A stretch of 64,000 bases of DNA from Bolinopsis microptera. Its lineage: Eukaryota; Ctenophora; Tentaculata; Lobata; Bolinopsidae. The notes below the pieces were generated by a model that had not been told where the DNA came from, searched no databases, and worked only from the letters and a program-made list of their open reading frames with translations. Location: positions 13,598,340 to 13,662,339 of the forward strand of contig NC_087081.1 of NCBI RefSeq assembly GCF_026151205.1, read 5' to 3'. A program made the position numbers and the translations under genes. Below are positions 27,091 through 60,807 of the stretch, one piece after another; position 1 is the stretch's first letter, and each line of letters opens with the position of its first letter.

Positions 27091-28126
27091 AACAGTTACT
27101 TATTGGACATCATGTGAGCAGATAATAAAACTTGCCATTTCAACTGGTTTACGTGCCAGGGTAGCAATGGCTATCGCAGCAATCGGCATTGGAATAGCTG
27201 CATTGGAAATATTTTGCACTCATGTACATTTGGCAGAACTGCCGTTTTTCTGAGCTCTCCAGAACATTCCACCTCTCACTCTCCACAGCCGCTACTCTGC
27301 AGAATGCTGCAAACAAATACTGCAAGCACAGTTTTACACGGTAGCGTTGATACCAAGTCCAACCAGTTGACACATGGACTATTGTACTTGGTTATGACCG
27401 CGTGGGAACTAACTCTTCCCTCCCGCCCTTTCTACAGCTACCGGAATTATTTAAATAACTTACAAATATTAATTGCATGATAATTGATAATGTAAAGAAG
27501 AGGAGTGTGGTCTTCTCTGATTGGGAAAGTGTGCACTTTTAAGTTTGCACTGTGTATACACTGTGAGAATTCCCGACTTTTCCAGGGTGGGTGGGTAGAT
27601 TTACAGAGTGTGTGCGTCAGATAGTGGAGATGGAGTCTTGGCTCATGACCACGGTAACTTTGAGGAAAATTAAAATGGCAGCTCGTTAGATAATAATTAG
27701 TTTCGGCATGTTTCTAATTGCGGGAATTATCACTAAAATTAGGACTAATTGAGGTAATTGTTTATTATTTACTGCCTCGATCTGCATCACGATGAAAAAA
27801 GTATCATCTGGTTTATTTCCGATATATGTATGATTTCCAGGCTGGCTACATCACATTAGCTTCCATTTCTTCTCTACTGTCACCACTCGACTACAATCTA
27901 CATGCACCCTGTCTGGCAGGAGTATCCTACAAAACACGGGTCCTCCCTTGTCTGATCAGTTGTTAACAGTGATGTTCTAAATATTTGGCACCTTCTGCTT
28001 CTAGTCCGCGCCTTCTACGAGTACCAGGCACCAGCAGTCAGCACTCCTGCAAGTTAAAGGGCGGGTAATTTAACTATGAGTATGTTTTTTAAATACTGAA
28101 GGGGCGTGTAGTGTCTACATTCAAAT

Positions 28127-29182
28127 TAAGGAACTGGTAGAGAATTGTGAGTGTTTTGTTAAGAATGAGTAGGTGGTAGTTAAGGAGCTGGTAGAGAATT
28201 GTGAGTGTTTTGTTAAGAATGAGTAGGTGGTAGTTAAGGAGCTGGTAAAGTTGTGAGTGTTTTGTTAAGAATGAGTAGGTGGTAGTTAAGGAACTGGTAG
28301 AGAATTGTGAGTGTTTTGTTAAGAATGAGTAGGTGGTAGTTAAGGAGCTGGTAGAGAATTGTGAGTGTTTTGTTAAGAATGAGTAGGTGGTAGTTAAGGA
28401 ACTTGTAGAGAATTGTGAGTGTTTTGTTAAGAATGAGTAGGTGGTAGTTAAGGAACTGGTAGAGAATTGTGAGTGTTTTGTTAAGAATGAGTAGGTGGTA
28501 GTTAAGGAGCTGGTAGAGAATTGTGAGTGTTTTGTTAAGAATGAGTAGGTGGTAGTTAAGGAGCTGGTAGAGAATTGTGAGTGTTTTGTTACAATGAGTA
28601 GGTGGTAGTTAAGGAACTGGTAGAGAATTGTGAGTGTTTTGTTAAGAATGAGTAGGTGGTAGTTAAGGAACTTGTAGAGAATTGTTTTGTTAAGAATGAG
28701 TAGGTGGTAGTTAAGGAGCTGGTAGAGAATTGTGAGTGTTTTGTTAAGAATGAGTAGGTGGTAGTTAAGGAACTGGTAGAGAATTGTGAGTGTTTTGTTA
28801 CAATGAGTAGGTGGTAGTTAAGGAACTGGTAGAGAATTGTGAGTGTTTTGTTAAGAATGAGTAGGTGGTAGTTAAGGAGCTGGTAGAGAATTGTGAGTGT
28901 TTTGTTAAGAATGAGTAGGTGGTAGTTAAGGAGCTGGTAGAGAATTGTGAGTGTTTTGTTAAGAATGAGTAGGTGGTAGTTAAGGAGCTGGTAGAGAATT
29001 GTGAGTGTTTTGTTAAGAATGAGTAGGTGGTAGTTAAGGAGCTGGTAGAGAATTGTGAGTGTTTTGTTAAGAATGAGTAGGTGGTAGTTAAGGAGCTGGT
29101 AGAGAATTGTGAGTGTTTTGTTAAGAATGAGTAGGTGGTAGTTAAGGAGCTGGTAGAGAATTGTGAGTGTTTTGTTAAGAAT
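28127..29182. repeat. Minisatellite, 54-bp unit, about 19-20 copies
   Basis: The unit reads GAGTAGGTGGTAGTTAAGGA then GCTGGTAGAGAATTGTGAGT then GTTTTGTTAAGAAT. Some copies carry small deletions (for example near 28245, 28586 and 28680). The 54-bp length keeps one frame open on the minus strand for 204 codons, encoding an 18-residue leucine-rich repeat; I treat this as an artefact. Confidence 0.96.
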
Positions 29183-29339
29183 GTGGCAGTAAAGTGACTT
29201 CACTACCAGTGACCGGCTACTAAGTAGTCTATTAACACGTTTGCAGGGCGGGGAAGTAAAAACACTGGTCTACTCGGAGTGTTGCTATTAGCGGGTTATC
29301 TTAGTGGTGACAGCACTACACAGAGTGGAGTACTCTTCC

Positions 29340-31465: not shown

Positions 31466-34400
31466 ATGGTTATTGACATCCTCTCTGGGTTTAAGGGAAT
31501 TACCCCATTCAAGGGGATCACGTTAGGTGAGTTGTCTTTAATTTAAATAAGTTCTATTCATATTAACTTGTTTTCAGTAAGTATATATATATGAAATAAG
31601 TTATATTTTAAGTATATAAGTATTAGATTATTGTTATTCAATCGCAGTTAAAATTAGTTTTGTCCTGGCCGGGGGGAATGCAACGTCAATTAATGTCAGT
31701 ATTCCATAAAAACCCCAAACTGACATTGACATTAATTGACATTAATTGACATTAATTGACATTAATTGACATTAATTGACATTAATTGACATTAATTGAC
31801 ATTAATATGTCTTGAAATTTGAGATTATCATTATTCGATAAATATAACGGCCAGGTAGCGCAGTTGGTTAGAACGCCAGCTTTGCAATCGTGAGGTTGCG
31901 GGTTCAAATCCCACTGTCTGCCTGGTCGTGGGGTGAGCGTCGTTGACGTTTAGCTAAGGATCCTGAGTGGTCTATGCAGCCCCCCGGTCTACTCAGCCGA
32001 ATACTCGAGAAATCAGGTGTGAGGGTTAAATGAGGAGCTGCACATTGCAGCAAAGTCTCGGGCGAAGAAAGTATGGTACACACTACCTTAACCGTCACTG
32101 GCTAAAAAAACAAATCCTTCGGCTTCCTGTAATTGGCTGGTTGCACTTGTGTAACAATGTGGCTGATGGAATACTCTGAAGTAAAATAAGTGTCTTGATA
32201 AAAAAAAAATTCAAGATATTCACGTCTATGTAAGTTAGACCGGTTCAAAAAAACAAAATGTCCTTGAATAATTATGAGTATGTTCTTATCTGTTGATCCT
32301 TAGGTTCAAAGACCACCAAAAAAAATTTCAGCTTCCAACTCTTCCATCTTCGGTCCCCACCGGCCACGCCCATATTTTATTGGTTTCTTATACAGGTAAA
32401 ATATCTAGAATCGGCTTTTTTAGTATGAAGGAGTAATGTTAGCTGTTTAAGATTCGTTATTCAAATATAAATGTCATGAAGGCATTTCGTTTAATGTGGG
32501 TTTTAAGTTCTGATGATGTTGAGAACCACGCCCTTGGATGGCCACGCCCATTTAAGAAAATTAAATTTCGGGAAACCGTATTATTTTAGTTTTATTGTTT
32601 AATGATCTGAATTTTTTTCACATTTCACATTTCCATATGTGATAGTAGTGAATAAATTGATGATATAAACGTTCTAAAGTGCTAAAAATATGGTAGAACT
32701 ACATAATCTCTGGTCGAAAAATATCGTGTCAATTAATGTCAGTATTCCAAAATTTTGCAAAACTGACATTGACATTAATTGACATTAATTGACATTAATT
32801 GACATTAATTGACATTAATTGACATTAATTGACGTTGCATCACCCCCTCCTGGCCATCTATAATCTATACGCTGTAATTAATTGTTTTGTGTAATTGTAA
32901 GTTGATTATACTCAGTATACTGTAGGCCTTTGTATTAAGGACAATGTTTAAGCTTGTTACCTCTATACTTAGCATTTGATCTGTCTTCAGCAAAATTTTG
33001 ACAAATTACAAATATGTTGAGCTCACTGAAAAATTTTAGAGGCTAATTTCCATAACTAAAAGATATATTTACGGCTACTCTGAGCAAAATATACAATGTG
33101 ACATGTTACTGGATATATATAACTGTTATCAATACGATAAATTTCGCACTATTAGTTGTCAATCTAGGGATAATTTATTGTCTGTGCAGAGCTGAGGGAT
33201 ATCTTCTGTTCAATTGGACTTTTTTTAAAGGACGGAGCAAACTTCTACAAGATGAAATTTTACCTTCCACAGAAAATTTTTTGATTTGCACCCATAATCG
33301 TCCAAAACCAGAAACATTATCTTTAAGAATTGAATTTAAGCTCGAGAGTACATGCTTGAGAATTATAACACTAGCCTGTTGCAGCAGTAGTATTTAATAT
33401 TGCAAATACATGTTATCAAGTACATATGAGGACAGTTGACTATCGGGCTAACTGTATTTAATTTGAGTGCTGAGAAGTTGGAAATCTTACAAGGTCGCTT
33501 GATCGAGTTATATATTCTTTAGTATGGTATCTGGGCTATAGGATGACGCCCCAAGCTACTCGAACTTTAGGATTTTGTAACTCATTCTAAAGAATATTGA
33601 CCAATAGAATTAGTCATGAACGAATAAATTTATGAATTTCAATTAGTACGCTGATTAATCAGCTAATTATCGAGTCAATTATTGAGCTAATTGTTAATTA
33701 TTTTCAGATGACGGGTGGGATCAGATAAACAGGAGTTTCATGTTCGTTCTGTGCGTGCTCATGGGAACGGTTGTAACGGTGCGGCAGTACGCGGGAGGTA
33801 AACAATCTGTCTGTTTGGGTGTTCGTCTGTTCGTTCGTTCGCATATTTATGTCAGTTTTTGTCCACTGGACTGCATGTCATTTTGTTTCCCTTCACAATG
33901 GATGGAACCTGTTAATTACAGTTTCGTTAGAACTTATCAAATTTCGATCATTGAATTTGTTGATAATAAGTTTTCAGGACCAAACGGGAATTGAATTTTT
34001 GCTCTTTTACTAAAAATGTCAGCGGTTGGTTAAAATCACCACTTTATGTGGCTACCATGAAAATTAAAATGAAATGACCAAGTGGTTAGCCAAACACCAA
34101 CCCACCCACCGTCCAGCATTAATAGCGTGCAACGGTTTCGATAAATTCGGAGCGGCGTTCAGCGAGGATTACTGCTGGACACAAGGGCTGTACACGGTAA
34201 AGGAGGCCTATGACCTGTTGTCACTTAACGTACCGTACCCAGGTTTGGAGTGCTATTGTTGTAGCCAGAGGATCCCGGTATGGAATGAGAGGTGTTTTGG
34301 AGGCAAGGGAGGTGGTCTGCGGAGGAACATCGTGTTTTTTATTGCTGCTAGTTGTTTGAGTTATGAGCTGATTTATATTAACGATGTTTCCTCCGAGTAA

Positions 34401-37400
34401 CCGCCCCCAGTGCACTGCCACCCCAGAACTCTCATCTCCCGGGATCCCGCCTTTACTGCTGCTCTTCGCTGACCTTGATCTCTTGCTTGCAGGAATTATT
34501 TCATGTGACGGCTTTACAAAATACTCGGGCTCGTTTAGCGAGGATTACTGCTGGACACAAGGTCTTTACACCATCAAGGAAGCATATGACCTCTTGCTGA
34601 TGAACGTGCCCTATCCAGGTACAGTTCCGGAGATGAATGTCATGTCACGTGATTAACGGTATATCGTCACGTGACAGTGATACTAAATTGTAATTTTTTA
34701 AAACAGATATTTTTGGGTCAGAAATAACGTAATGTGCCGATGCTGAGTATGGGAAACTCATTTACAGGCGGTATTCGGATGCTATACTCAGGTTTTTAGT
34801 CATTGCGTTAATTCTGGCCCAGCATTTAAAAAATGTTGGTGTCTCGATGTGGTAAAAATAAGCTCGTGGGGGCTCAGTCAACAAACCTTTCTTATGGACA
34901 GGGGCTATTTACAACAATCTAAATCATTAAAAGCTTACCAAGTTTACCATGGTATGCTCGAAAATATGTGGTCCACATATTTTGATTTCCAATCATCACA
35001 ATCACTCACCAAATTTCACGTTCTTTAAATCGTCAAGACATTAAGCAGACCCAGAACGGTAAATAGACAGATTAGACACTATACATCTCTCAAGAAAGAC
35101 GGTCCTATTTTGGTACAGTATCTAGACGACGCTAAATATGTCTTATCTTTTACCACAATCAAGGAGTGATTTTCCAACATGAAATTCAACAAAATTAATT
35201 CTTCTAAACTTGCCTGGACATGACGTCTCAAATCGAGAAAACTAGTGTTGAACAATCACTCCTCCTTCATCAATTCAAGTGGGTTTCTCTGCTATTATCG
35301 TTTAAAAGACCGCTGAATTTTATAATAATAGTTAGTATAGCTGGGTACCGCTGGGTTGCGATCATAGTCAAGCTACCTTCCTAATCACGTGATGTGACGT
35401 CACCACTTTTTATGACGTCACACCGTTCATGAAACCATGTTATGGCTATTATTATTTTCTGAGCTAAGTATGCTTAATTGGGGCTATCGAAAATTCGGAA
35501 GTAGCTGCATTAAGTTATTACTTACTCATTTATATCATATCTAATGTTTTTTGGCCCACAAGGCCTAAATTGATATTGTATACATTTCCCAAGAATATAC
35601 ATTTCCCGAGAATATATATTTTGTCCGAGTTTACTTTCTATATTATTTTTTCTGTTTGACTCAATTCCAATTCCCCTCACAGGAGTAATTCCTGAGGACA
35701 TGCCTGCTTGTATTGAACGGGAACTGATTAACGGAGGTCGAGTGGCCTGCCCCGATCCTGAAACTGTAAAACCACCCACCAGGTTTGTTCATTTGTCCGT
35801 CCGATTGTACAGTTAATGTAAGGACTAGACGCTGAGTTTCAGTTATAATATCTGTAGTGTCATAACCGGTTTATATATCAAGTCCTTTTACAGACATTTG
35901 TTGTGACAATCCGTTCGCCTTTACATACTCGAGTGTAACCTTGCTCGATTAGGACGTATAACTGACGCTTCCAGAACTTTAAAACTGTCCTTCGCTCAAT
36001 TTACTGATACTGGACATAGACTAATGACATTCCAAACAGCTCCTCCGGGCCCCCCTGCTCTTATATTACACCCGACCTGACTTGTAAAGTGGGTATCAAG
36101 TAACCTCTCAAATATTTGAACTGTTCATTAATCTTGTCCCTGGAGCAGTGCAATGAGTGTTGCAATATGGTGCTATGAGTCACGTGAAAGTTTATAAGGG
36201 GACTACGAGAGTCCGGTGTTGTGGCTGTAAGACCTTTACTTTCTCTGTTAGACGACCAGGTGGCATGGGTAATCTTTAGAAACTCAATTACTACGTGTAT
36301 CACGTGATGTGACGTCAAACCACGTGCGAACTATTTGATTGGCTTCACCAGCACGTGGTATGACGTTATGACACGTGTGTTCAGTATTATGATTGGTTGC
36401 GCCAGCACGTGGGCTTGTCTCCATTGGTTACACGGCGTGATTCAGTGATCGCGTGATATTAAGAGTCCCATAACAATGGTTATTGTCACGTCAGGAAGCC
36501 CGGATTGGGTTACAAATCTCGTATATCATGGTTCTCCCCGGAATGTATTCCTTATCCTCGTGATGTTTTAACATTTAGGAAGACTAACCAAGTACGATAT
36601 GATATTTGATTGTCGTCATGAAATATAGCAAAAACTGGTAAATATTTGTCCGTCCGGACCGGAGTAAGAAATCTTCTGGAAAATTCTCTGAGTGCTGCCT
36701 TTCACACTTTCGATAAAATGTTTTCAGTTCACCGATCTTTATTTACGGGGCGCTTGTACTCGAAAGTTCTATGACTGTTGCCAAGGTTACGGACGGACAT
36801 TTATCCACATCGGTAACATTTCCAAGATCCACAGAATCTGAAAACATTTTATCCTCAGTTGTGGTGAGGTACTATCAGACACTAAATTATTGGGCACAGG
36901 TGAAATACCACCACCCCAACCAGAGAACAGTTCACCACAGACAGAACACCTCACACAGGGTGGGACATCAGACACTGTTGATAAACCCTATTTGAGGGCA
37001 ACTGACAGTCCAGTGCCATTACATCATACAAACAACACGTCACCACATCAAGCTATAGACGGAACCTTTCAGTCGGACCAAAATATATCCTTGAAAAATG
37101 AAACTTTGTCCACGATGAGAAATCTTGATATTTCTGATACAAAAATTGTGCCTGTGGTGGATCCTGGCTTGAGTCCACGGACACTAACGAGTCCAACCAC
37201 AACTCTCACCGACAAGACTTCCGGACAGGTTTCTAGTGTTAGCCCACCCAACCAAACCACATATCTCCCCAACACCCCACAACAATCCGACCAAACCACT
37301 GAATTCTTGACTAACACCCCAACCACTGAACATTCCAACCAAACCACCACATCTTCAACCACCACACCCCTCACTCCCACAACACAATCCACTGCACAAC

Positions 37401-40400
37401 CTCGAAGTGACATCACCCCCAATGCTAACCGCTCAAACCAGACCACACCGCCACCCTGGGTTTGGGGAGTGTGGGTGTCCTCTACTTCTGAGCCCTGGCC
37501 TAGGGTACAGACTAACTTGACTGACCGACCTGCCAGACTTAGGGACAGCAATGTTCCTTGTATAGATAGGAAAGCTACTACTAGGTTGTTTTTTAAATGG
37601 TTGCATCTTTCAATTATATTTTCTTGTGTCTTGTTTTTGGTTAGTTGAATCAGCCATTATAATTTGTCCATTATTTTATTTGTTCTGTAACATTTCACTT
37701 CTTCAGAGTATACCACTTGTGGTACCAGTGGGTTCCATTCTACTTCTGGCTTGCAGCTGCCGCTTTCTTCTTCCCTTATCTTATCTACAAACATTTCGGT
37801 GTTGGCGACCTCAAACCCCTCATTCAGATGCTCCATAACCCCATCGTCGACGAAGGTAAGAAAAACTAAATCACGTTATACGTTTAAATATACAGTACAT
37901 ACCGGTATAGTTGAAATACATCTCGAGATTTTATAATCTGAAATACGATTTACCTTTCTTGATAATAATCACGTGATCCACCTGATGACGTCACACACTA
38001 GAGGTCTCTATTTTACAATAGTTACACCACATCCTGACAGGTAATACCTAATAACGGGAATTTATCTTTAAGTATTATGCAGTTTGTCTCTAATACAAAA
38101 GGTGGTTATTTCGTCTACTCGTTGTGGGGAAAAAACTGTAAAATTGGTCTAACATGTAAAGTCTCTATTACATGTATTAGTTCTATTAGCCTGTATTAGT
38201 TCTATTAGCCAAATTGTCTTGGAGGAGGGACAGGAGGAAGTCTGGACAAATGGTGTCCAATTATCACCTTGGTAATCTTGTATAATGTTATATTCATTAT
38301 TCAATTAGTAAATAACGCTAAACATGTATAATACGTCTGAGAACCTCTTTTATTTAAAGTTTTATTAAATTTTTCAGACATCAAAGAAATTTTCGTAAGG
38401 AGCCGGGTCCCCCATGAGCGGTATTAAATTATTCGCATAAAATATAATTATACGAAGGACCCTCTGTAGTCTATGTGTCTGAACGAAGAACGTAAATTGG
38501 TTTATAATAACTTAAATATATATTGGTCTATGATAAGTTGAATTGGTTTATAATACGTTTAATTTATTATTTGCTGACTGTGCATGCTACTGATAAAAAC
38601 GTTAATGACTCCTGTCTTGTCTAAAAGCGTGACGTAAGATAAGAGCTAAAGTTGATGAAATATTTGATGACTTAAGAGTTAAGGTTCCATGACTCAACAG
38701 TCAACATGGGGTTCTTAGATGAGCTAATATAAAAGAAAGGGACCTCACAATTTCCTGTTTCATCAGGCGACTGTGTGTAATATAATAACATTATCTAACA
38801 TAACACTGGTCCTGTAGTAACAAGACTAACGAGGGACCCGCTCACTGTCTGTATTAGGTTACACTAGTTTTGTACATCCCAACACATTCTGCTCTTTTGT
38901 TGAAATATCTTTGAGGTGGTGGTACTGTGTATGTACATGTGATATTAAGAGGAGAAAGTAAGAACAAAACAGAAAGTGAGAACAAAACAATCCCGCCAAT
39001 TTTCAAAATATGTGTGTAACATCATGGGGCCGTTACAAGTGGGACTCCCACAAATTGAAATTCGATTTTAGTTGCTTTTATCCCCTTAACATTCCGGACT
39101 TACACTAGGCCCTCTTAAGTCATAGTATGTAGTGTCGTTGGTACAGGAAGCATTTCAAGCAAGTTATGAGTTTTTGATTTAATAAGTGCTGACATCACGC
39201 AACTCAAGTGGGTAGAATCGAGTGAAATCGAGGGAAAATGAGTTAAAAGTAGTAATGTATAATTGGGAAGGTGTTTAAACTAAGATACATAACAGGATAA
39301 TTGCTCTTGGGCTGCATTTAGTGGTCTTCGGGCGATTCCCTGTCGTCAGTTTAAGAAGAACAACCAACGAAATTATATAGGACAACTGGAGATAATTGGT
39401 AGAATAAAAATAAAATAGAATCCCAAAACTTTCCTCTCAAGATGAAGGAATAAATAATAGCTTTATCTGTCCTTATCTAACCTTACCACTCTTCTCAGGT
39501 GACCAGAACGCAATGGCAGAAAAGGCAAGCATGTGGCTGTTCTACAAACTGAACGTCTTCATGAACGAAAACACCATCTTCGCTATCCTGACCGAGAAAC
39601 ACAGGCTATTCTTCATCGTAATGGTCGTCAAATCTCTATACCTGATCATCAGGTCAGTTTGTTGATTAGTTAGTTAATTAATAATTAATTAACTAACTTA
39701 AGTTAATTAGATCATTTTCTTGTTAAAATCTACCATTATCTCTTGTTCACTTACGTCGGCTTTTTTTCATCCAAAATCTAGTTGGTTTAATAGGCTTTAC
39801 TCTAGTAATCACCACGGGTGTTTTCTCTCATGTTTAGCCAGCATTTCTGCGTCATTATCTATTGTCAGATGGTCTAACAGAATGTTGTCACTTTCTAATG
39901 TGCCCAATTATAACATTACTAAACTAATTACGTCTAACGACTCACCCCAACAACACACCCACCCTCACAAGTCAGGTACACTATACTGACACAGCTACAG
40001 ATAAACCATGTTAACGAACACTTCCAGCTAACCGCTTACTCACTTACACCACTATTTCCATTGTTCGGTTTTACGTTGTCCAATTATTGATCAGCCTGTT
40101 TAAATAAAGCCAAACGAGCCGTGTAGCCTTATTGGCTAAGTCATTGGCAGTTATGTGATTATCGTAGGATAATTATCTATCATCGCGTCGTACGAGGTTT
40201 ACCTAACTCTTGACCAAAATTAGGGAACAAACAATATTACGAAGGAGTCCGTCACATTGATGACTAATGATGGATCATATTCTAAATATACACAGGGGTT
40301 TGGTACACTTCTTAATCAACTTGGTGGCCCATCTCGTCTTATTCACTTGGCCACGACCCATCCCACCAACCTGTTGGACGGAAAAACAAATATAATAAAA

Positions 40401-43400
40401 CACACATTTATTGAGCATATTTTAATTTAGTCGGTTGTAATTAATTTTAACGCACATATGTTCGCAGTATCATGGCTCTGTACCTGACGGACGAGATGTT
40501 CCACATTGGCTCCTTTATATCGTATGGAAGTGAGTGGGCCACGTCGCTACCTGTGGGGGACAACGAGACGACCCTTGTTAAAGACAAGCTTTTCCCCAAG
40601 ATGGTGGCTTGTGAGATCAAACGATGGGGTCCTACCGGTGAGTTTCAGAGGATATCCATGAATATTTGTAATCATTTTGGGGAGTGTCATTCCAGCATGT
40701 CGGCGTGGTTTAAGTTTTAATCTAGTGCGGCTATTAGCTGTCGGGAGAAAGGGTAATTGCAGGTTTGCACGTGAGATTACAGTTAACATCTTCTTTCCAC
40801 TCGCCGCACAAGCTTGATTAGCATTTAAAACTAGATATGATAGTGTTATGCCGACGCGCCGAATCAATTAGCTCAATTTTATCCATCGATAATTCTTTTC
40901 AGATATTTGATTTATCGATGGAATAAAAAAGCTTACAATTGGTATTGTAGACAGTCCTGAAATGATAAATTTTGAAATTTTCAAACACGCCGAGCTTAAG
41001 GGGACATACACCAAAAGCTTTTATGCCCTGGCCCTGCTTTTAACGTCATATTAAGAAAGTATACATAAAAACAATAAGATTTGATACATTAAAAATTATT
41101 TTTGAGGACCCGCACTTTCGAAAAAATAAATATTTTCTTTTTCGAAAATTTTGGAAATTTTGAGAAGTCTGTCACTGTAATACCAATATTTCAGTCATTT
41201 TAAACGTTTATTGACTGATTTTTTAACTGAACATTATTTACAATCCGTACAAGAAGCCCTTCAAAGGATTTTATAATTAAAATATAGATGACGAAGTTAC
41301 AGGCCAAACAAGGTCGAGAGAAGCAAAATTGAAATATTTGTAAAAATCAAAGTTGTATATTTTACCATTCACCCAGGTCATAAGATATCGCTTCAAAAAT
41401 TCTTGTGAGTGTAGCTGATGATCATATCCAACTTTTTGGAACAGGATTTCTCTCAATTTTGAGTTTTAAGGTATGAAATGTGGCCTCAAACGACTTAGTA
41501 AAATTCATCGTAAAAAGGGCCAAACATGGCAGATTTAAGGCTTAAAATGCCTATAACTCAAAAAGTATCAGTTTTTTTGAAATAATTTTTACAGAATCGT
41601 AATCAGCTTGAGAAGACGAATCTTTTAGTACCAAATAGGTGATTTTAGAAGACAAATTGTCTTAAATAATTTTCTAGCTCGAACACAAGGGTCCCCCCTT
41701 GTATAAATTTTGTACAAATTGTACACATTTTTTTACAAATTTTGTGTCTTTAACTATTATAAATTTGGTACTAAAAGATTCGTCTTACCAAGCTGATTAC
41801 GATCCTGTAAAAATTATTTCAAAAAAACTGATACTTTTTGAGTTATAGGCATTTTAAGCCTTAAATCTGCCATGTTTGGCCCTTTTTACGATGAATTTTA
41901 CTAAGTCGTTTGAGGCCACATTTCATACCTTAAAACTCAAAATTGAGAGAAATCCTGTTCCAAAAAGTTGGATATGATCATCAGCTACACTCACAAGAAT
42001 TTTTGAAGCGATATCTTATGACCTGGGTGAATGGTAAAATATACAACTTTGATTTTTACAAATATTTCAATTTTGCTTCTCTCGACCTTGTTTGGCCTGT
42101 AACTTCGTCATCTATATTTTAATTATAAAATCCTTAGAGGGGCTTCTTGTACGGATTGTAAATAATGTTCAGTTAAAAAATCAGTCAATAAACGTTTAAA
42201 ATGACTGAAATATCGGTATTACAGTGACAGACTTCTCAAAATTTCCAAAATTTTCGAAAAAGAAAATATTTATTTTTTCGAAAGTGCGGGTCCTCAAAAA
42301 TAATTTTTAATGTATCAAATCTTATTGTTTTTATGTATACTTTCTTAATATGACGTTAACAGCAGGGCCAGGGCATAAAAGCTTTTGGTGTATGTCCCCT
42401 TAAGGCGACGAAGTAACTGTCTAGTTATTATCACCCAATTATACGATTACCAACCAATTACCCAATTAGCGAACCGTGCAGTGTGCACTGACACGACTCT
42501 CAAACCAATGATGTACGTTGTTATTCCGCCTTATCCCCCCTAACACATGTTTTCTTCAGGTCTGGAGGAGGAACAAGGAATGTGTGTGTTGGCCCCCAAT
42601 GTTATCAACCAGTATCTCTTCCTCATCCTCTGGTTAGTAGATCACAAACAAACTTATAAAATGTTTTGAGGCGTCAATTCAAAACTTTCCAGCCGAATGT
42701 GGTAGTACATTCCCAGATAAAGTCCATCCAGCTGCTAAAATAAAACCCCTCTCTCAGGTTCGCCATTATCTTCTGCATCGCTTGTAACTGCCTGTCCGTT
42801 CTCTTCGCCCTCACAAAGTTGATATTTGTCCTGGGATCATACAAGAGACTGCTAGCCAGCGCCTTCCTCAAGGACGAACTCCGTGAGTTGCTTGACGATT
42901 GTTTGTTTATTTTTTGGGGTCTAATGCTTGGTATTTTGAAAAACCTGGTTGAAGGCGAGTGTTGCTTTTTATGAGGAGTGGACGGATTTCTTGATACTTT
43001 TACTGACTTTGACGGACCTTAAGTATTCCAAATTTCAAGCTTAGTTTTAACTTTTCAGACGCCTTCCGTGAGCTTCATAAGCAGATCGGCTCGTCAGGCC
43101 GAATTTACCTTGAGATTATTTGTGATAATGTCAGTCCTGGGCTTTTTGAGATTTTGATCGCATTTATCTTGGAGCAATTTAAGCTTAGAGGCAAAGGAAA
43201 AATATCCCGGCTCTTGAAGGATTATGAAAATGACTTTCGACCGCCTATCATCCAAAATACAGAAAATCAGACATATACAGACCCGTAACAACAGTTGATT
43301 AACTGACCAAATAGTGAGTATTACAAACTTTATACAAACTTAACTTGACAAACTATACACACTATACACTTTACAGTGTATAGTAGTATATACATTACAC

Positions 43401-44883
43401 ACATACGCTATACACACGGACAACCCAGCTATTAGGGAGATCTACATGTGCACCGGAACCTCTGGTCGGTTCATGCTCCACTTCCTTCTGGACCGTATTG
43501 GTCCGGCCCGGTTTCACCTACTCATTGTGTACCTGGTGGAGCGATTTAGGAGGAACCTGGAGCGGGAACTGAGGAGGGGTGGTGGGGAGAGTAGTCGGGG
43601 TCTGTTAAGGGAGAGATAGGTGGTAGGTGTAGGGTGATGAAGATTAATGTGACAAGACGTGACAAGCATACTGTGACAAGTGTACTGTGACAAAACACTG
43701 TGTGTGACAAGTATACTGTGACAAAACACTGTGTGTGACAAGTATACTGTGACAAAACACTGTGTGTGACAAGTATACTGTGACAAAACACTGTGTGTGA
43801 CAAGCATACGCATACTGTGACAAAACACTGTGTGTGACAAGTATACTGTGACAAAACACTGTGTGTGACAAGTATACTGTGACAAAACACTGTGTGTGAC
43901 AAGTATACTGTGACAAAACACTGTGTGTGACAAGTATACTGTGACAAAACACTGTGTGTGACAAGTATACTGTGACAAAACACTGTGTGTGACAAGCATA
44001 CTGTGACAAAACACTGTGTGTGACAAGTATACTGTGACAAAACACTGTGTGTGACAAGCATACTGTGACAAAACACTGTGTGTGACAAGCATACTGTGAC
44101 AAAACACTGTGTGTGACAAGTATACTGTGACAAAACATAATATGTGTGTGACAAGTATACTGTGACAAAACATATGTGTGTGACAAGTATACTGTCACAA
44201 AACACTGTGTGTGACAAGTATACTGTGACAAAACACTGTGTGTGACAAGTATACTGTGACAAAACACTGTGTGTGACAAGTATACTGTGACAAAACATAT
44301 GTGTGACAAGTATACTGTGACAAAACACTGTGTGTGACAAGTATACTGTGACAAAACACTGTGTGTGACAAGTATACTGTGACAAAACACTGTGTGTGAT
44401 AAGAGATGCTGGTCATCTGATGGAACGTGCTGACTTTTAGAGCAGTTAAAATATTTATTTGGAAAATGGGCTTATTTTTAACGAAAGTTGAAGAGTTCGT
44501 ACCTCTAAGTCTAAGTGAAGCACTTATAATTATATGAATCAAGATCCAAGTTGATTTTGGATGTCCTATTAAGCAAGTGCCTCTTTAATTTGAGCTGACG
44601 TTGCAAAAATGCAGAATTATAGCTAGTTCATTGAATTCCTATGTATTTGAAGCTGTCAACTTGATAGTTGAGTTTGTAATTTTCTTAATATTATCAAAAA
44701 CCAACGTTTCCTTCCATTTCAGATTACAAACACATGTTCTTTAACGTTGGTACGAGTGGAAGAGTCCTATTGCAGATTGTAGCTTCCAACGTTTCGCCGC
44801 GTGTCTTCGAGTCCATCATGGCTAACCTTGCCACCAAGTTGATAGCCGAACGTTTGAAGGGGAATGGTAAAGGGAGTGTCTAG
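31466..44883 (+). CDS. Innexin C, gap-junction subunit with alternative exons (about 402-425 aa)
   Basis: Exons: 31466-31526, 33708-33797, 3a 34117-34242 or 3b 34493-34618, 35683-35782, 37707-37855, 39499-39652, 40468-40637, 42560-42632, 42758-42882, then one of three last exons 43059-43288 (10a), 43429-43619 (10b) or 44723-44883 (10c). All junctions are GT-AG and phase-consistent. The protein starts MVIDILSGFKGITPFKGI, then DDGWDQINRSF and TM1; loop 1 has SC/AC and DYCWTQG; TM2 carries WYQWVPFYFW; loop 2 has FPKMVACEIKRWGPTG and MCVLAPN; TM4 and a GSSGR/GTSGR tail follow. Lengths are 425, 412 or 402 aa for 10a, 10b, 10c. TM2 and loop-2 exons are almost identical in nucleotides to innexin A. 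Introns 37856-39498 and 39653-40467 hold nothing recognisable. The innexin call is firm; isoform use is inferred. Confidence 0.92.
31667..32855. mobile_element. TIR element with terminal 10-bp arrays, carrying a SINE
   Basis: The left end (GGCCGGGGGGAATGCAACGT) and the right end (ACGTTGCATCACCCCCTCC then TGGCC) are inverted copies of about 30 bp. Just inside each end is an array of ATTAATTGAC: about seven copies at 31740-31806 and six at 32770-32835, in the same orientation and each preceded by the same GTCAATTAATGTCAGTATTC leader. No transposase frame is present, so this is a non-autonomous element. It lies wholly in innexin C intron 1. Superfamily is not clear; no obvious target duplication. 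Confidence 0.65.
31849..32113 (+). mobile_element. tRNA-derived SINE (tRNA-Ala-like head)
   Basis: The head (31849-31927) has a 7-bp acceptor-like pair GGCCAGG/CCTGGTC, an A box TAGCGCAGTTGGTTA (31856-31870), TGC at the anticodon position (31883-31885) and a B box GGTTCAAATCC (31901-31911). The anticodon stem does not pair well, and the sequence continues for about 185 nt into a non-tRNA body ending in an A-rich tail (CTAAAAAAACAAA). This fits a SINE transcribed by RNA polymerase III, not a working tRNA gene. Confidence 0.78.
34117..34242 (+). CDS. Innexin C alternative exon 3a (extracellular loop 1)
   Basis: 126 nt after a CCAG acceptor and before GTTTGG; enters in phase 1 and leaves in phase 1. 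It encodes 42 residues containing ALIACNGF and SEDYCWTQGLYT. Compared with exon 3b it has the same length, the same phase and 30 of 42 identical residues; both loop-1 cysteines are kept. Differences cluster between the two cysteines (FDKFGAAF against FTKYSGSF), the part expected to face the partner channel. Confidence 0.88.
34493..34618 (+). CDS. Innexin C alternative exon 3b (extracellular loop 1)
   Basis: 126 nt after a TTGCAG acceptor and before GTACAG, 250 nt downstream of 3a. It encodes GIISCDGFTKYSGSF then SEDYCWTQGLYTIKE. It is closer than 3a to the single loop-1 exon of innexin A (ISCNGFTKYDGSF), so 3a may be the changed copy. Because 126 is a multiple of 3, joining both copies would not shift the frame but would duplicate loop 1 and add two cysteines, which makes mutually exclusive use more likely. 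Confidence 0.9.
35383..35420. promoter_or_regulatory. E-box plus two CRE motifs in innexin C intron 3
   Basis: CACGTG at 35386-35391 is followed by the palindromic CRE TGACGTCA at 35395-35402 and again at 35413-35420. The E-box to CRE spacing (9 nt start to start) is repeated exactly at 36301/36310. CREs are bound by CREB/ATF proteins. A regulatory role is inferred. Confidence 0.5.
35894..35934 (+). CDS. Possible upstream exon of the nested mucin-like gene
   Basis: After a TTTACAG acceptor, a 41-nt frame encodes ICCDNPFAFTYSS and stops at a GTAACC donor, ending in phase 0, which is what the next candidate exon (36728) needs. The paired cysteines resemble the YDCC of that exon. It is short and rests only on splice signals and phase, so it may be chance. 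Confidence 0.22.
36181..36430 (+). promoter_or_regulatory. Dense CACGTG/CRE/CCAAT cluster before the nested gene
   Basis: Six CACGTG sites (36181, 36301, 36321, 36352, 36372, 36406), a CRE TGACGTCA at 36310-36317, a half-CRE TGACGTTA near 36361, and three inverted CCAAT boxes (near 36337, 36390 and 36423). The block lies 300 nt upstream of a candidate exon of the mucin-like gene, inside innexin C intron 4. It may be that gene's promoter or an intronic enhancer of innexin C. Confidence 0.5.
36728..37648 (+). CDS. Mucin-like Ser/Thr/Pro-rich protein nested in innexin C intron 4 (5' end unknown)
   Basis: Two exons fit: 36728-36812 (after TTTTCAG, encoding FTDLYLRGACTRKFYDCC then QGYGRTFIHIG) and 36900-37648 (after GGCACAG, 249 codons and stop), joined in phase 1. 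The large exon is rich in Thr, Ser, Pro, Asn and Gln, with several N-glycosylation sequons (NQT, NTS, NSS). It ends in a hydrophobic stretch (LHLSIIFSCVLFLVS) at the very C-terminus, as in a GPI-anchor signal or tail anchor. No ATG opens the large exon, so a signal-peptide exon is expected upstream. The stop codon is only 58 nt before innexin C exon 5, so its 3' UTR must overlap the innexin splice region. The low-complexity composition means a fortuitous open frame cannot be excluded. Confidence 0.45.
37968..37995. promoter_or_regulatory. E-box and CRE pair in innexin C intron 5
   Basis: CACGTG at 37970-37975 and TGACGTCA at 37986-37993, the third such pair in this locus, here with 16-nt start-to-start spacing. 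It lies 115 nt after exon 5. Confidence 0.4.
41000..42399. mobile_element. 1.4-kb TTAA-flanked fold-back element in innexin C intron 7
   Basis: The ends are GGGGACATACACC and its exact complement, flanked by TTAA at 40996-40999 and 42400-42403. Two arms of about 635 nt (41000-41632 and 41762-42399) are nearly perfect reverse complements around a central spacer of about 130 nt. There is no coding capacity. TTAA duplication is typical of piggyBac-type insertion. The near identity of the arms implies recent formation or correction of one arm by the other. It fills most of the intron between exons 7 and 8, so every primary transcript should contain a very long hairpin. Confidence 0.9.
43059..43288 (+). 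CDS. Innexin C alternative last exon 10a
   Basis: Begins after CTTTTCAG with two nucleotides that complete the codon left by exon 9 (phase 1). It encodes 75 residues and a TAA stop: HAFRELHKQIGSSGRIYLEI then a conserved NVSPGLFEIL segment, and a long charged tail ending TYTDP. It is the longest of the three tails. The conserved GSSGR and NVSP positions match innexin A and exons 10b and 10c. Confidence 0.8.
43429..43619 (+). CDS. Innexin C alternative last exon 10b
   Basis: Begins after CAACCCAG in the same phase as 10a and 10c. It encodes 62 residues and a TAG stop, with CTGTSGRFMLHFLLDRIGPA and a basic end (RRNLERELRRGG then LLRER). It has diverged most: NVSP is replaced by IGPA. The frame is open and the acceptor intact. 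The 31-bp minisatellite starts about 40 nt after its stop. Confidence 0.72.
43659..44399. repeat. Minisatellite, 31-bp unit, about 24 copies
   Basis: The unit is ACAAGTATACTGTGACAAAA then CACTGTGTGTG. Copies vary by TAT/CAT and by short internal losses or gains near 43806, 44139 and 44170. It sits between the alternative last exons 10b and 10c. Long minus-strand open frames here (up to 279 codons) are products of the repeat, each unit shifting the frame by one, and are not genes. Confidence 0.95.
44723..44883 (+). CDS. Innexin C alternative last exon 10c
   Basis: Begins after CATTTCAG in the same phase as 10a and 10b; 52 residues and TAG. It encodes HYKHMFFNVGTSGRVLLQ then a conserved NVSPRVFESIM segment and a basic end (AERLKGNGKGSV). 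It is the closest of the three to the single last exon of innexin A (YKKVYYKVGSSGR), so it probably represents the ancestral terminal exon. Confidence 0.86.
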
Positions 44884-46194
44884 TGCTTACACACCCTCGT
44901 GACCATTGCGTGTCGTCACGTGCTACAAACATGTGTTACGCCGCGCGCTCGGTCGCAGCCCCGCGTCAGTCAAGAAGCATACTCCGCCGTTTTCGAGGTA
45001 CTTCTATATATATCAGTCAGAGGCAATAGGCGTGAGGTCTAGGACTGCTTTCTAAATGATGATAAGTATGGTAATCATTGCTATATTTGGATTAAAATAT
45101 TTTCAAAAACATTGGATCGGTTTAAAAGGTTGAGGAATGGGTCCCACAGCTTCACGGCAGCTGTGTTCATTTAACAGGTCACCCTCATTGTGATTTGTGA
45201 GCTGAATGATGGAAGTTCATGTTATTAAACACTCTATCATGTAGACTGATAAACGTAGGATCAGACATTTTCTTAACGAAAACTCTGCATGGACTACAAT
45301 ATAAATTCAGATAGTTCAATTTCCCAAAAAAAGATTTGACTTAATGTGAAACTATAATCACCTACATTGGCTGGTGTAATGGGACTACTACTAATCCGAC
45401 GTTGTCTTGTGAAAAAGCTTTTCTCCGTAAAAAAACAGCAAGAAATCTTAAACCAAACCTTGTCATAGTGTTTTTATCAACTCAAATTCCATCGAATTTT
45501 GACATTTTAATTGTTGTTATGACGAAGATGATCGAATTTTTAGACTTCTAGAGACATATAATTCCTGTTGCTTTTTTTCTGAACATGATGATTTTGGGGA
45601 GAAACTACTTTTACCGGCTTTTTCAGACAATCGCAGTGATTTTTAAACATTATTTTTTGTAGTTATTTTGGACGGTTAAGGTTTGGAAATGTGACGCGAT
45701 CATTGCACGCTTGTCACTCTTTCAGATCTTGCATTATGAATGTCTTATACCACTTATAGATCGATATAAAATATATTAACATGTCAATGTTCAGGGGCAA
45801 ACATCGTAAATTACCCCCCAGAATTAGTGTTTTGTAAATTATCAAAATTTCGGGTCATCTTAAAAGTTAATGTGTTGAGAAGAAATTGATAAGTTTTGTA
45901 GTAAATTATCGTGATTTGTCCCATGTTTTAGTTACTAAAAGGATTCGGTATCCATCACCCTTGGATTTAATATCCGTTGCCCTTAGAACCTTGGCGTCAT
46001 CGTATAATGACGTCATCAGATCGTTTATTTTCTTCGATTAATTGGGTCGTAAACTGACTTTTTATAAATATCTATAAACGTCCGCTACTGGTTTAGCAGA
46101 GACCAAGTATTCTTATTATTTTCATATGCCGTCTTCCCGTGTTACACACTCAGCAGATTGATAGGTTACACGCTATCAGGTTACTCAACTGGTT

Positions 46195-51233: not shown

Positions 51234-54200
51234 TTAAAAGGAGGTCTTGAGGTCGCTGAAGTGATCTTCGGAATTCATGTCACGTGTCATGGCAGTTTTA
51301 TCGTTTACTTTAGCTGTTATAACAACGTGCTGTAGCTGAGGAAAATGGTCTCATCAAAATATGGATAATATAGATGTGGTGAAAATTAATTGTTTTGACA
51401 CGTGATCAAAAGCTGGCACTCAGCCATATATGGGCATTAAATCAGGTTACCAAGCCAGACCCTTTCCCATTTGATTTTTCTCAGTATATAGACTGTTGAA
51501 GAGTTTAATATCACTTCATTGTTAAAAATGATTCACTTTCAGTAAAGCACTGATAAGAGTATCATTAATTATTAAAGAGAATCAAGTAGTATAAAGTAAA
51601 TCATATCTGTATATTCAACTATATTTCAGAGAGTAATCGTCAATTAGTTAGTCACTTAGTTAGTCACTTAATTAGTCACTTAATTAGTCACTTACCACCC
51701 CTATGCGAAGTTCCATCTGGATAAGCTCGTTCTTGACTTTAGTGATAGCTTGTTTAATCTTGACCAGCGGTCCGGAGTCAGTCATAGTTGTTCCTTTTTC
51801 GTCCATCTGAGCTTTTATACCTTCCAACTCTTCAGTGATCTGACAGGAGAAGTGCAGGCTTCAAACACAGTGCGATCCCAAATAGCTGACATGTGACTCA
51901 ACTATCAGTAGCTTTAATGCGATTGGATGAAAACAGAGATGATGTAATTGAAATATCTTAGCTTGTTATCGGACAAAACCGTTACAAATACAAGTGTTTG
52001 ATTTAATTTGTCAACTATATAGCATCCAAGTTAAGTTCCAGGATGATTTGCACGACACCGAGAAAGAATCTTTCTAAAAGAACAGATATTATGGTAAACA
52101 TATTCTAAATTAGATAATGACAACTTTAATAGTTTTATTAACGATTTAAGTAAGTGATATAATCATGATAATAATGAACCTGAGCGAGGGTCCGAGACTG
52201 ATCCGTTACGGTAGATCCGGCACTGCGATATTTCTCTTCTATTTCTGCTAATCTGAAAGATACAAATCGCATCAGTCATCAGTTATTGGGATGTCGGATG
52301 CTCCATTTATTGAATACATCTTGGTTCTTAAATCTTAACACCCTGATTAAAACTGGCCCGGTAAATATTTATCAGGAGCAACCATTTTTTGAATGCACGA
52401 ATGAAAGCCCCCCGTAAGGGGATTATCTCTAATGGACTAATTCATTGTTTACATCATAATCAGTTAAAATAAAAACCCAATGGGCACTCCTGAAAACATA
52501 ACTACAAGAAAAATATATCAAAACTAAATAGAAAAGTGAGGTCAAATGTAATAAATCGTAACAAACTGCATTTAATGGCATTAAACTTTTGAATTTGTAA
52601 TTTAATGGCAAAGCAAATTATAGAAAATGTAATAAAATTCAAGCAAAATTTTTGTTCATGAAACCCACAGAATACAATATCTCAGTAACTTCCTTAACAT
52701 TATCAAGGACTATACTTATAAAATTATTTACCGATCCTTTAGTCGTCTGTACTCGGCTATTGGTCCCTCCATCTGACTGTTTATATACTTCTCCCTGCTT
52801 GTTATCTTTTCTAAAGTCCGTGTTATCTCCTGATGCATCTGGTCCAGATGTGTCTGTAAAAGATAAGGTGTTAAAAGATAATTTGTTAAAAGACCTCACA
52901 ATTCGTTGTATGACGTTCCCGTTCATCACATGGTAATGACTCATCAAAACGATTTTGTTGGTGAACCGGAAAATAACAAATTTAGCACTACTGATGATTT
53001 TTCCACAGAAGAGTCCCAAATCTAAAATAATGAATCTAAAACAATAACAATATAATATGAAAATTATTTTATAAAATTTAATAAAATGAGCGGGTTGAAC
53101 CTTGCTGGCGGTTAGAGATGTGCTCATGTTCTTCCTGTTCTCCAACATCTGATCTAAATGTGTTCTCCAGTCCTGCGAGGCTGAGTCCTAAAGGTTCTAC
53201 TTTAAAACACGGCAATTAATTAATTCATTAATTAACTAATTATCCAAATATCTAACTAACTAATTGTTGTCCAAAATCTGATCTGAATGTGTTCTCCAGT
53301 CCTCCGAGGCTGAGTCCTAAAGGTTTTGCTTGAAAACATGGTAATGAATTAACTTATTAATTAACCAATAAACAGGCCTTATTTCATTAATCTGTTCATT
53401 TCAATCAGATGGAAACTCAATAATACACAAAATTATGAGCCCAAAAACAAAATTAATAGCTTCACTACATAAATCTGAATCTATCAGAAATTGTATATAA
53501 AACAAGAAATCAGTAAACTTCAACAAATCAGGTATCTCATTTCCTTGACACGTTTCTCCTCCAATACCTTAAAATCATCCAAGTAAACGGGCCTGATATT
53601 GCAATAAACCTTCACAGCCCTAACTAATCCCACCACTACATACGAAAACATGACTACAACGAAGAAAGAAACAATTTGTCGTGTAAAGTCGGGACAACAA
53701 GCCACGTTTCCACGGGAGTTCCTGCAACAGCCAGCCGCGCAGCACATGACCGTCACGTTGCCGTGGAGATCCTTACAGCACGTCTCCTCGCGCTGACAGC
53801 ACCTGCCGCCGCAGCAGTCCTCGTCCTCGTTACAGCAGTAAGTTTTCAGGCTCCACGGAATACCCTCTATATCAACAGCAGTCTCGTCAGGTGAACGTCT
53901 CATGGGACGATGGTTGTCGGTCAGGGTGAAGTTTCTCTCTTTTTTGTGGTGAAAGCTGTGTGGGTTGTCGTGAGCTTGTGGCGTTGCCCAGTGAGCACAG
54001 CAAATCAGTTGGTTTGGAGTTTTGGTTTGAGTTTTGTTGTTGAAGGGACATGCTGTATGCACGTCAACTCCTCTCCGTTTTAGATCAATGAAGTCTCGAC
54101 AGAATTCTTGGGATGGTTGGCTAAAGGAGAAGGATGCTAACAAAACCATGATTTGGAAGACGCAAGCCACCCTCCTTGTATTGCTCATGTCTTAAATTAA

Positions 54201-58876: not shown

Positions 58877-59457
58877 GGGGGCCGGGGGGGGGGGGGGGGT
58901 CTTCATCGAAATTATCTCGAAATTGATTTTATAGTTGTTTCTGATAGAGGGGAGTTACGGTATATCTATCCGCTGCTTTTGGTCCAATGGAAATATATTA
59001 TTCTTCTCCTACGTTTTTGAGCAATCACCCTGAAACTTTCAGGATATGTTCTAGGGATCATTTAGAAGAGATATATTGAGCCGAATTTTGAGATAGGCCT
59101 TATTTTAGAACATTTTTTATTCGATTTTGAAAATCTTGGATCTAATTTTTTGACGATTTTTCCAGGTCCAAGATTTTCAAAATCAAATAAAAAAGTTTCT
59201 AAAGCCTATCTCAAAATTCGGCTCATCATATCTCTTCTATAGATTTTTAGACTCGATTTTCAGGGCACACGTTTGAAAATCGCTCGCGCAATACAATTAC
59301 ACATAAACGCTGACCTTTGACCAGCGATAATTTCGGCTAGGAACAATATTTTTTCATGGGACCAAAAGCAGCTGATAGATATTACTCCCCTCTATCAGAA
59401 ACAACTATAAAATCAATTTCAAGAGAATTTCGATGAAGACCCCCCCTCCCGGCCCCC
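58877..59457. mobile_element. Complete TTAA-flanked fold-back element, 581 bp
   Basis: Flanked by TTAA at 58873-58876 and 59458-59461. The ends are GGGGGCCGGGGGG and its complement CCCCCCTCCCGGCCCCC; the left end has a G run of about 16. Arms of about 285 nt pair with each other, meeting near 59150-59165. The sequence is related to the truncated copy at 4557-5116. No coding capacity. Confidence 0.9.
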
Positions 59458-59463
59458 TTAATC

Positions 59464-60807
59464 ATGACTGTACATCACCCAAGTCCCGATTTAATGTTCC
59501 AGTATACTAAATATTCCAGTAAAATAATAAATGATAAATTTAATTCAGGAATGGTCCTCGAGGACGAATCCGAAATAACGCCCTGTCCAAAAACTACAAG
59601 ATGGACCAAACGAGACTACAGTCTCCTTGTATTAGCGATGATGGTCAAGTTTGGGGATGCAGTGGAAATGTATTTGCCTGGAGTGATCACACAAAAAGTA
59701 GCCTGTGAGCTGGATGTCTCATTTTTCCAGGAGGGGACTCTTTCTATCACCTTCTATGTCTTTATGGGTGTAGCTACACTAGCTGCTGTACCGTTGGCGA
59801 ATAAAATTGGAGATAAAACCACTTTGCTCTGTTCACTGTATGGCTCCATATTTTTTACCATATTCTGCGCATTGGTCCCAAATTATTATACTTTTCTACT
59901 TTCTAGAGCTCTCATAGGGCTGGGCTGTGGGTTGAACTTGACAATAATTGGAGTCTTTGGTGCTAAAAATATATCTTCCAAGGAGAATCTACCAACATTT
60001 TCTTTCATCCAAGGTAGCATAGCATTTACTTTCGGATGCGCATGGGCTCCGCTGCTGGGTTGGCTGCTTCTTGATACACTAGGCTGGCGGGTGTTTGTCC
60101 TCTTAACATCCATTCCTTTGTTCATCCCACCAATAATCATGCTACATTTTTTCGACGAAGAAGATGAAACTACTGGAAGTGAATCAACGAGCCTACTCAA
60201 GAATCAAAATGAATCTGTCGAAAACTTTCCTGTGAGAGTTCTAAAGGCGAGCATTTTCGGGGGCTTTAGACACTTCATAGGATATGGAAGTATCATGCTT
60301 CTTCCAATGATCATCAGAAATTACAATTTATCCGATAAATCTGTAGGTGCCGATAAATGTGAGGAAGTTGTACATGGAGATCAATATATGATCCTTGCTG
60401 CGGTAAATGGCCTTGCTAATATCCTGGGACGGCCGATTGGATTTTTTCTTAGACCACACTTCAAGTTTATGCCTCTCCAAACCACATTTATGCTTGGTTT
60501 TGCCATATCTTACGGGATCATCCTAGCAAGACCTGGTTTACTTTTTGAATCTATAATGATGGGAATAGGGAAATTATGCTATTCTATGGGAGGAGCAGAG
60601 CAAAGCATCCTGCATTACGATGTAGACTATTTTGGACTCTCAGGATTGTCTTTGGGTGGTTCCCTGATGTTTTTGGGCTGCACAGTGGGTACTGTAATAA
60701 GTACCACTCTCGCTGTTTTCATTGATCCTTATCATGCTGTTATGGTAGGTTTAATTGTTAGTCTTGCACAGGTCGCTGTCATCTATTCATTCCATGAACG
60801 GAAGTGA
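59464..60807 (+). CDS. MFS transporter, SV2/SVOP-like (447 aa, intronless)
   Basis: A multi-pass membrane transporter of the major facilitator superfamily. About 12 hydrophobic segments are visible. TM1 carries GDAVEMYLPGV (64-74), close to the acidic TM1 motif of the SV2/SVOP and related organic-ion/sugar branch; a degenerate loop 2-3 motif is PLANKIGDKTTLL (110-122); TM4 has SRALIGLGCG (147-156); GWR follows TM6 entry at 207-209; the central loop is acidic (FDEEDETTGSE, about 230-240). Substrate cannot be inferred. The gene has no introns in a window where other genes are split, suggesting retroposition. The first ATG lies 2 nt after a TTAA-flanked fold-back element, so either the transcript starts within that element or a later Met (residue 11 or 30) is the real start; both remain possible because the N-terminal 45 residues are not conserved-looking. 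AATAAA follows at 61168. Confidence 0.88.
   Translation: MTVHHPSPDLMFQYTKYSSKIINDKFNSGMVLEDESEITPCPKTTRWTKRDYSLLVLAMMVKFGDAVEMYLPGVITQKVACELDVSFFQEGTLSITFYVFMGVATLAAVPLANKIGDKTTLLCSLYGSIFFTIFCALVPNYYTFLLSRALIGLGCGLNLTIIGVFGAKNISSKENLPTFSFIQGSIAFTFGCAWAPLLGWLLLDTLGWRVFVLLTSIPLFIPPIIMLHFFDEEDETTGSESTSLLKNQNESVENFPVRVLKASIFGGFRHFIGYGSIMLLPMIIRNYNLSDKSVGADKCEEVVHGDQYMILAAVNGLANILGRPIGFFLRPHFKFMPLQTTFMLGFAISYGIILARPGLLFESIMMGIGKLCYSMGGAEQSILHYDVDYFGLSGLSLGGSLMFLGCTVGTVISTTLAVFIDPYHAVMVGLIVSLAQVAVIYSFHERK

Follow-up and report, generated by a model that had tools for sequence, protein, structure and literature searches.

Gap-junction variety is usually attributed to gene number. In Drosophila, the shaking-B locus yields innexins that differ over their first third by way of alternative 5' exons and promoters, which carry the N-terminus and the first transmembrane segment (TM1). 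Two of its forms, ShakB(N+16) and ShakB(L), differ in the part that precedes the outer end of TM2, including loop 1, match exactly beyond that point, and form heterotypic, rectifying channels (PMC5412853). Here we analyzed a 64,000-nucleotide (nt) stretch of contig C10 from the 264.65-Mb Bolinopsis microptera assembly (232 contigs), hereafter the window, whose coordinates are used throughout, focusing on an innexin gene with two adjacent exons for the same part of extracellular loop 1: exon 3a (34117..34242, + strand; ALIACNGFDKFGAAFSEDYCWTQGLYTVKEAYDLLSLNVPYPG, first and last codons split) and exon 3b (34493..34618, + strand; GIISCDGFTKYSGSFSEDYCWTQGLYTIKEAYDLLLMNVPYPG). An earlier reading of this DNA, the original prediction, had proposed these as interchangeable, and splice sites, relatives and conserved positions bear it out: judged on these, the conserved pair of intact, alternative loop-1 exons in one innexin gene is genuine. 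Its author also knew of no described case. We found no description of tandem alternative loop exons in an innexin in the literature, judged by titles and abstract openings with few subscription journals covered, so that the statement would hold for a tandem duplicated loop exon but not for loop-1 variation as such, which shaking-B splice forms already display (PMC5412853).

The two exons are closely matched in form. Each spans 126 nt, is preceded by ag and followed by gt, is entered and left in phase 1, and encodes the half of extracellular loop 1 that carries the cysteines, such that 3a or 3b alike connects exon 2 to exon 4 in frame. As adjacent homologous exons of like length and the same phase, they show the arrangement of a mutually exclusive pair. 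Their equal size, shared phases and intact acceptors and donors, all claimed in the original prediction, are confirmed by our gene model; the retention of both loop cysteines is confirmed by an alignment of 31 database innexins; and the claimed 30/42 identity is correct apart from how split codons are counted, as 30 of 41 complete codons specify the same residue, or 31 of 43 residues if the two split end codons are included. At the DNA level, 87 of 123 bases are identical over the complete codons, with similarity at background level beyond the exon edges. The 36 base differences fall 9/5/22 at codon positions 1/2/3, and 14 changed codons are synonymous and 11 nonsynonymous (nonsynonymous divergence dN 0.175; synonymous divergence dS not estimable by NG86); silent changes thus predominate between the two exons. 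The 12 residues that differ, of 43, lie at protein positions 51, 52, 54, 56, 59, 61, 62, 63, 64, 78, 86 and 87. The earlier claim that substitutions lie mainly between the cysteines is weak: 6 of the 12 do so, and with 6/14 positions substituted between C55 and C70 against 6/27 outside, the clustering is a mere tendency (Fisher p = 0.28).

The two exons share an unchanged eight-codon core, SEDYCWTQ, at 34161-34186 in 3a and 34537-34562 in 3b, while outside it shared residues mostly use different codons, a pattern that hints at gene conversion acting locally or at a constraint on the RNA. The loop-1 exon of a paralog at C10:1.43 Mb matches 3a and 3b at 86 and 87 of 123 bases, respectively. A recent duplication as the origin of the pair was considered and is unsupported, the identity between 3a and 3b (87/123) being no higher than that of either to this paralog; because the divergence is equal, the pair would be old, or one exon (3a) derived from a paralog.

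We next turn to the conservation of 3a, for which the 31-innexin alignment, built without window sequences, served as reference. Exon 3a retains 13/13 segment positions that are at least 90% conserved, 21/21 at 80% and 24/25 at 70%, and a profile of exon 3 from the same 31 innexins recovers the 3a frame with E = 1.7e-25 among the 2,881 frames of the window on both strands, which excludes chance. A database protein search with exon 2, 3a and exon 4 gave 9 matches from 12 candidates: two of 3a type (P0045, P0046), three of 3b type (P0044, P0047, P0048), three to exon 4 (P0049-P0051) and one (P0052) corresponding to another innexin's exon 2. The comparison with relatives proposed in the original prediction thus found 3a-type frames in P0045 and P0046, which are genomic frames on contigs of 519 and 1,573 bp. 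P0045 agrees with the window's 3a at 42/43 positions in the exon and 11/14 in the intron frame directly before it. P0046 agrees at 35/43 in the exon (30/43 against 3b), compared with 2/16 before and 3/50 after, and because its exon matches and its intron flanks do not, conservation starts and stops at the predicted splice sites. At segment positions 1, 4, 6, 14 and 28, the three 3a-type copies carry A, A, N, A and V where the five 3b-type copies carry G, S, D, S and I, and when the trees are scored on these eight rows alone, 100% of 200 bootstrap replicates separate the 3a type from the 3b type. Taken as sequence evidence, with relatives compared as protein frames only, these patterns point to purifying selection on both exons. 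The two intact exons in the window and the 3a-type exon in other database records are the directly observed part of the reading that we favor.

That reading, to which we assign a probability of roughly 0.72, is that 3a and 3b are old tandem alternative loop-1 exons used singly, with 3b chosen by default, inclusion of 3a regulated, the choice enforced by an intron hairpin, and the two products sharing their membrane and cytoplasmic parts while differing in the outer vestibule. The default role of 3b would fit its relatives: P0001 (402 amino acids (aa), a 1,342-bp contig, 47 cluster members, 87% identical to the gene studied here) is a relative's spliced product reading 3b - exon 4 - 10c (40/43, 28/34 and 49/54 matches), and the fragment P0044, whose differences point to a further species, reads exons 1 - 2 - 3b - 4; the 3b type is thus the one present in both spliced relatives. 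A weaker, regulated 3a would be consistent with its acceptor tract, which has a T content of 1/20 compared with 9/20 for 3b. Exclusive use of the two appears likely, and because no 3a transcript was found, we infer it.

The proposed means of exclusion lies in the 250-nt intron between the two exons (34243..34492, + strand), where folding predicts one hairpin of 64 bp at 34270-34447 that takes up most of the intron (z = -3.1 with 100 shuffles, -3.36 with 40 shuffles). With this hairpin formed, 27 nt lie between the 3a donor and its base, and a further 25 nt between its base and the A (34472) of a consensus-like branch site, CTGAC, so that the donor would be separated from the probable branch point of 3b by only about 52 nt of free sequence. 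A distance of about 52 nt is close to the lower limit between donor and branch site in animal introns, for which reason the joining of 3a to 3b may be sterically blocked; a hairpin acting in this way is possible, and such hindrance would make the choice exclusive. No other copy of the hairpin was found in the genome by a DNA search with 34100-34640, a search that skips very common words.

The swap would most probably be felt at the outer face of the channel. A predicted structure of P0001, the 3b ortholog, has an innexin fold (mean predicted local distance difference test score, pLDDT, 81; best PDB match INX-6, 5h1q, E = 1.4e-9), with a strand at residues 53-56 and a helix at residues 63-74. 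In INX-6, a loop-1 helix narrows the pore, the loop-2 sheets are clamped by two lobes of loop 1, the two loops come together at the junction, and each loop-1 cysteine forms a bond to loop 2 (PMC5146279). We read helix 63-74 of the model as corresponding to the pore-narrowing helix. Six of the 3a/3b substitutions fall between C55 and C70, immediately ahead of the modeled helix and at its beginning, and six lie beside the cysteines; the swap is therefore likely, on this model, to affect the loop-1 pore constriction, the docking surface or both, and because substitutions precede or begin the helix, the pore vestibule seems no less likely to be affected than docking. The original prediction's proposal of altered partner compatibility accordingly stands as one option of two, since the loop-1 helix of INX-6 is a pore constriction (PMC5146279) and permeation may be altered equally. 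One innexin gene can thus probably build channels with two different outer faces, and the swap offers a clean natural experiment on whether innexin loop 1 acts through pore constriction or docking, as well as a candidate means of partitioning electrical coupling among cells.

Several observations weigh against this account. P0045 possibly comes from the same species as the window or a very near one; the diagnostic letters are partly found in paralogs too (N at 6; A at 4 and 14); the 3a/3b tree rests on 43 columns, has branch support of 75/53 and is equaled by 20 of 500 label shuffles; and three paralogs group on its 3a side (69/81). No spliced product with 3a was found among database relatives, both spliced ones found (P0001, P0044) using 3b, an absence that says little because the protein database is clustered at 90%, which would conceal a form with 12 changed residues among 402 (3%). 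The hairpin is a minimum-energy prediction and moderately unusual only, with 4 of 126 equal window tiles scoring lower; it is by its T content that the 3a acceptor looks weak, as its pyrimidine fraction (0.65, compared with 0.70 for 3b) is ordinary for this gene; and the structure model covers the 3b ortholog only. A transcript joining 3a to 3b stays in frame, so nonsense-mediated decay would not enforce exclusion. Finally, competing pairing around the two exons, raised as a check by the original prediction, did not emerge: duplex energies for the three pairs formed by intron 2, the middle intron and intron 3 were equaled or bettered by 100, 54 and 95 of 100 shuffles.

The last two points would suit 3a and 3b being cassette exons that can also be both included or both skipped, giving two, one or no copy, since the products stay in frame (467 aa with 3a+3b, 383 aa with both skipped, each with exon 10a). 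We think this improbable: a doubled or absent cysteine segment would disturb the conserved cysteine bonds between loop 1 and loop 2 seen in INX-6 (PMC5146279), and the predicted hairpin shortens the very intron that would have to be spliced. That 3a is instead a dead relic, an old duplicate no longer spliced and persisting by chance, would account for the missing 3a transcript, the T-poor acceptor tract and the use of 3b in spliced relatives, yet it sits poorly with P0046, whose agreement is confined to the exon (35/43 against flanks of 2/16 and 3/50), with the residues fixed among 3a-type copies, with the 13/13 family positions retained, and with the third-position excess among 3a/3b changes; we regard it as quite unlikely. 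Least probable is that 3a serves as a regulatory decoy, read through past its donor into the intron to yield a truncated protein, as the frame does continue for 51 codons to a stop at 34398-34400 but the read-through part is unconserved in P0046 (3/50) while the exon is conserved.

The exon pair belongs to a complete innexin, assembled by gene model and tblastn from ten exon positions on the + strand, all with GT-AG splice sites. Exon 1 (31466..31526) provides the start codon and N-terminus, and exon 2 (33708..33797) TM1, exiting in phase 1; downstream of 3a and 3b follow exon 4 (35683..35782; second half of loop 1), exon 5 (37707..37855; TM2), exon 6 (39499..39652; cytoplasmic loop and TM3), exon 7 (40468..40637; end of TM3 and first part of loop 2), exon 8 (42560..42632; end of loop 2 and start of TM4) and exon 9 (42758..42882; TM4). 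Searching the gene region with tblastn gave one exon 1 and one exon 2, and hence no alternative first exons of the shaking-B type, although an unrelated-looking first exon would escape such a search. Over exons 1-9 (348 aa), the 3b and 3a forms score 150.5 and 149.9 bits against Pfam Innexin PF00876 (cut-off 25), and all four loop cysteines are present in both; among the 31 database innexins, C55 and C70 of loop 1 occur in 30 of 31 rows and C275 and C292 of loop 2 are invariant. The protein is a putative gap-junction or hemichannel subunit.

A 685-nt Thr/Ser/Asn-rich open stretch in intron 4 (36900-37584, + strand) initially looked like a second version of exon 4, or 4b. Its phases are compatible with exon 4 and it holds 10 N-glycosylation sequons compared with a mean of 4.1 in 2,000 shuffles. 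We rejected it as a duplicate exon, as it scores -4 bits against the exon-4 profile, carries one cysteine instead of two, and has no relative among 348 database candidates at E 0.001; joining it to exon 4a would break the frame. Intron 7 contains an inverted repeat (41399-42000) with arms of 256 nt that are 96% complementary, which to us looks like a miniature transposable element.

The last exon is present in three homologous copies, all in phase after exon 9. Exon 10c (44723..44883, + strand), placed by the gene model, is of the type used by P0001 (49/54), the sole spliced relative to reach the last exon, while 10a (43059..43288, + strand; profile E = 8.7e-10) and 10b (43429..43619, + strand; profile E = 1.2e-5) are in phase, open and candidate alternatives. 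Within 43000-46000, AATAAA/ATTAAA signals are limited to ATTAAA at 45091 and 45224; none lies in 43000-45090, and hence none near 10a or 10b, whose status as true last exons is uncertain for that reason. All 12 combinations of 3a/3b, the two candidate exon-4 stretches and the three candidate last exons are open, six remaining once 4b is rejected. Two exclusive loop-1 exons and three last exons (cytoplasmic dome) could in principle produce six gap-junction proteins, with the loop choice made cell by cell and setting coupled neighbors or pore passage, a tentative extension that we consider rather unlikely. Repeat arrays at 28089-29269 and 43514-44584 (- strand) yield long, probably spurious reading frames.

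The + strand of the window carries three innexin genes, matched at 2.5-9.1 kb, 19.8-22.1 kb and 31.5-44.9 kb, the gene with the exon pair being the third and thus an outer member of the cluster. This arrangement fits the INXB-INXC-INXD cluster described by Ortiz et al. 2023, which lies on chromosome 10 in Hormiphora (PMC9949713); the main text of that paper contains no mention of splicing or exons, and ctenophore innexins have elsewhere been noted as exon-rich, with up to 14 exons (PMC4685580). The name "Innexin C" was the original prediction's own and does not hold up well, since an outer member is more likely INXB or INXD than INXC. Beside the gene lies an IFT57-like frame (52639-53187, - strand; E = 0.0019, below the Pfam cut-off), and in Mnemiopsis an intraflagellar-transport gene is placed between INXA and INXB (PMC9949713); because of this resemblance INXB is slightly favored over INXD, although the choice, based on gene order and one weak IFT57 match, is not settled. 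Elsewhere in the window, a 456-aa frame at 59437-60807 (+ strand) matches major facilitator transporters, and a 479-aa frame at 62264-63703 (+ strand) carries both a GDSL-type esterase domain and a 2OG-Fe(II) oxygenase match that falls below threshold.

To place the exon pair among the innexins of this genome, we compared 18 other genes, namely 16 in 17 stretches (L053 being without a match) and the two others in the window, leaving out one member of a duplicated pair on C1 and one of a pair on C7; the genome profile search scores best candidates only, so further innexins may exist. None of the 18 has a second full loop-1 exon, with L041, L044 and L054 having their loop-1 segment matched in two separate pieces, and none has more than one last exon, with L044, L051 and L054 lacking a last-exon match and that of L057 falling in two pieces. 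No ortholog of the gene was found in viral contigs. Three pairs of innexin genes with equal or near-equal scores, at C1:4254005/4378223, C7:6754013/6935049 and C3:17717744/17785694 (about 124, 181 and 68 kb apart), are probably local duplications, and the C1 and C7 genes look intronless because the whole profile is matched in one open frame. A stray exon-4-like match in L041 (7805-7876, - strand; E = 0.003), downstream of another innexin gene, may be a fragment of a further innexin or a chance match.

Comparison with described systems places this locus between several partial analogies. Aedes aegypti Inx1 and Inx3 are reported to have C-terminal splice variants, as the three last exons here might give, with no loop-1 exon pair mentioned in the parts of that account covered (PMC8580445). 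The Mnemiopsis gene Mhc2 offers a predicted mutually exclusive exon pair in a ctenophore, but in a myosin motor domain rather than a cell-cell channel (PMC3912159). The mutually exclusive domain II pore exons of NALCN likewise swap a short functional segment of a channel; that channel is unrelated, the segment governs pore selectivity rather than forming a cell-cell outer loop, and the NALCN variants were demonstrated by complementary DNA, whereas 3a and 3b are known from genomic sequence (PMC3557258). The nearest precedent is shaking-B, in which one innexin locus also gives proteins that differ in loop 1, by another route: there the whole first third varies, whereas here the N-terminus, TM1 and the rest of the protein are constant and a 42-codon tandem loop-1 exon would be swapped (PMC5412853).

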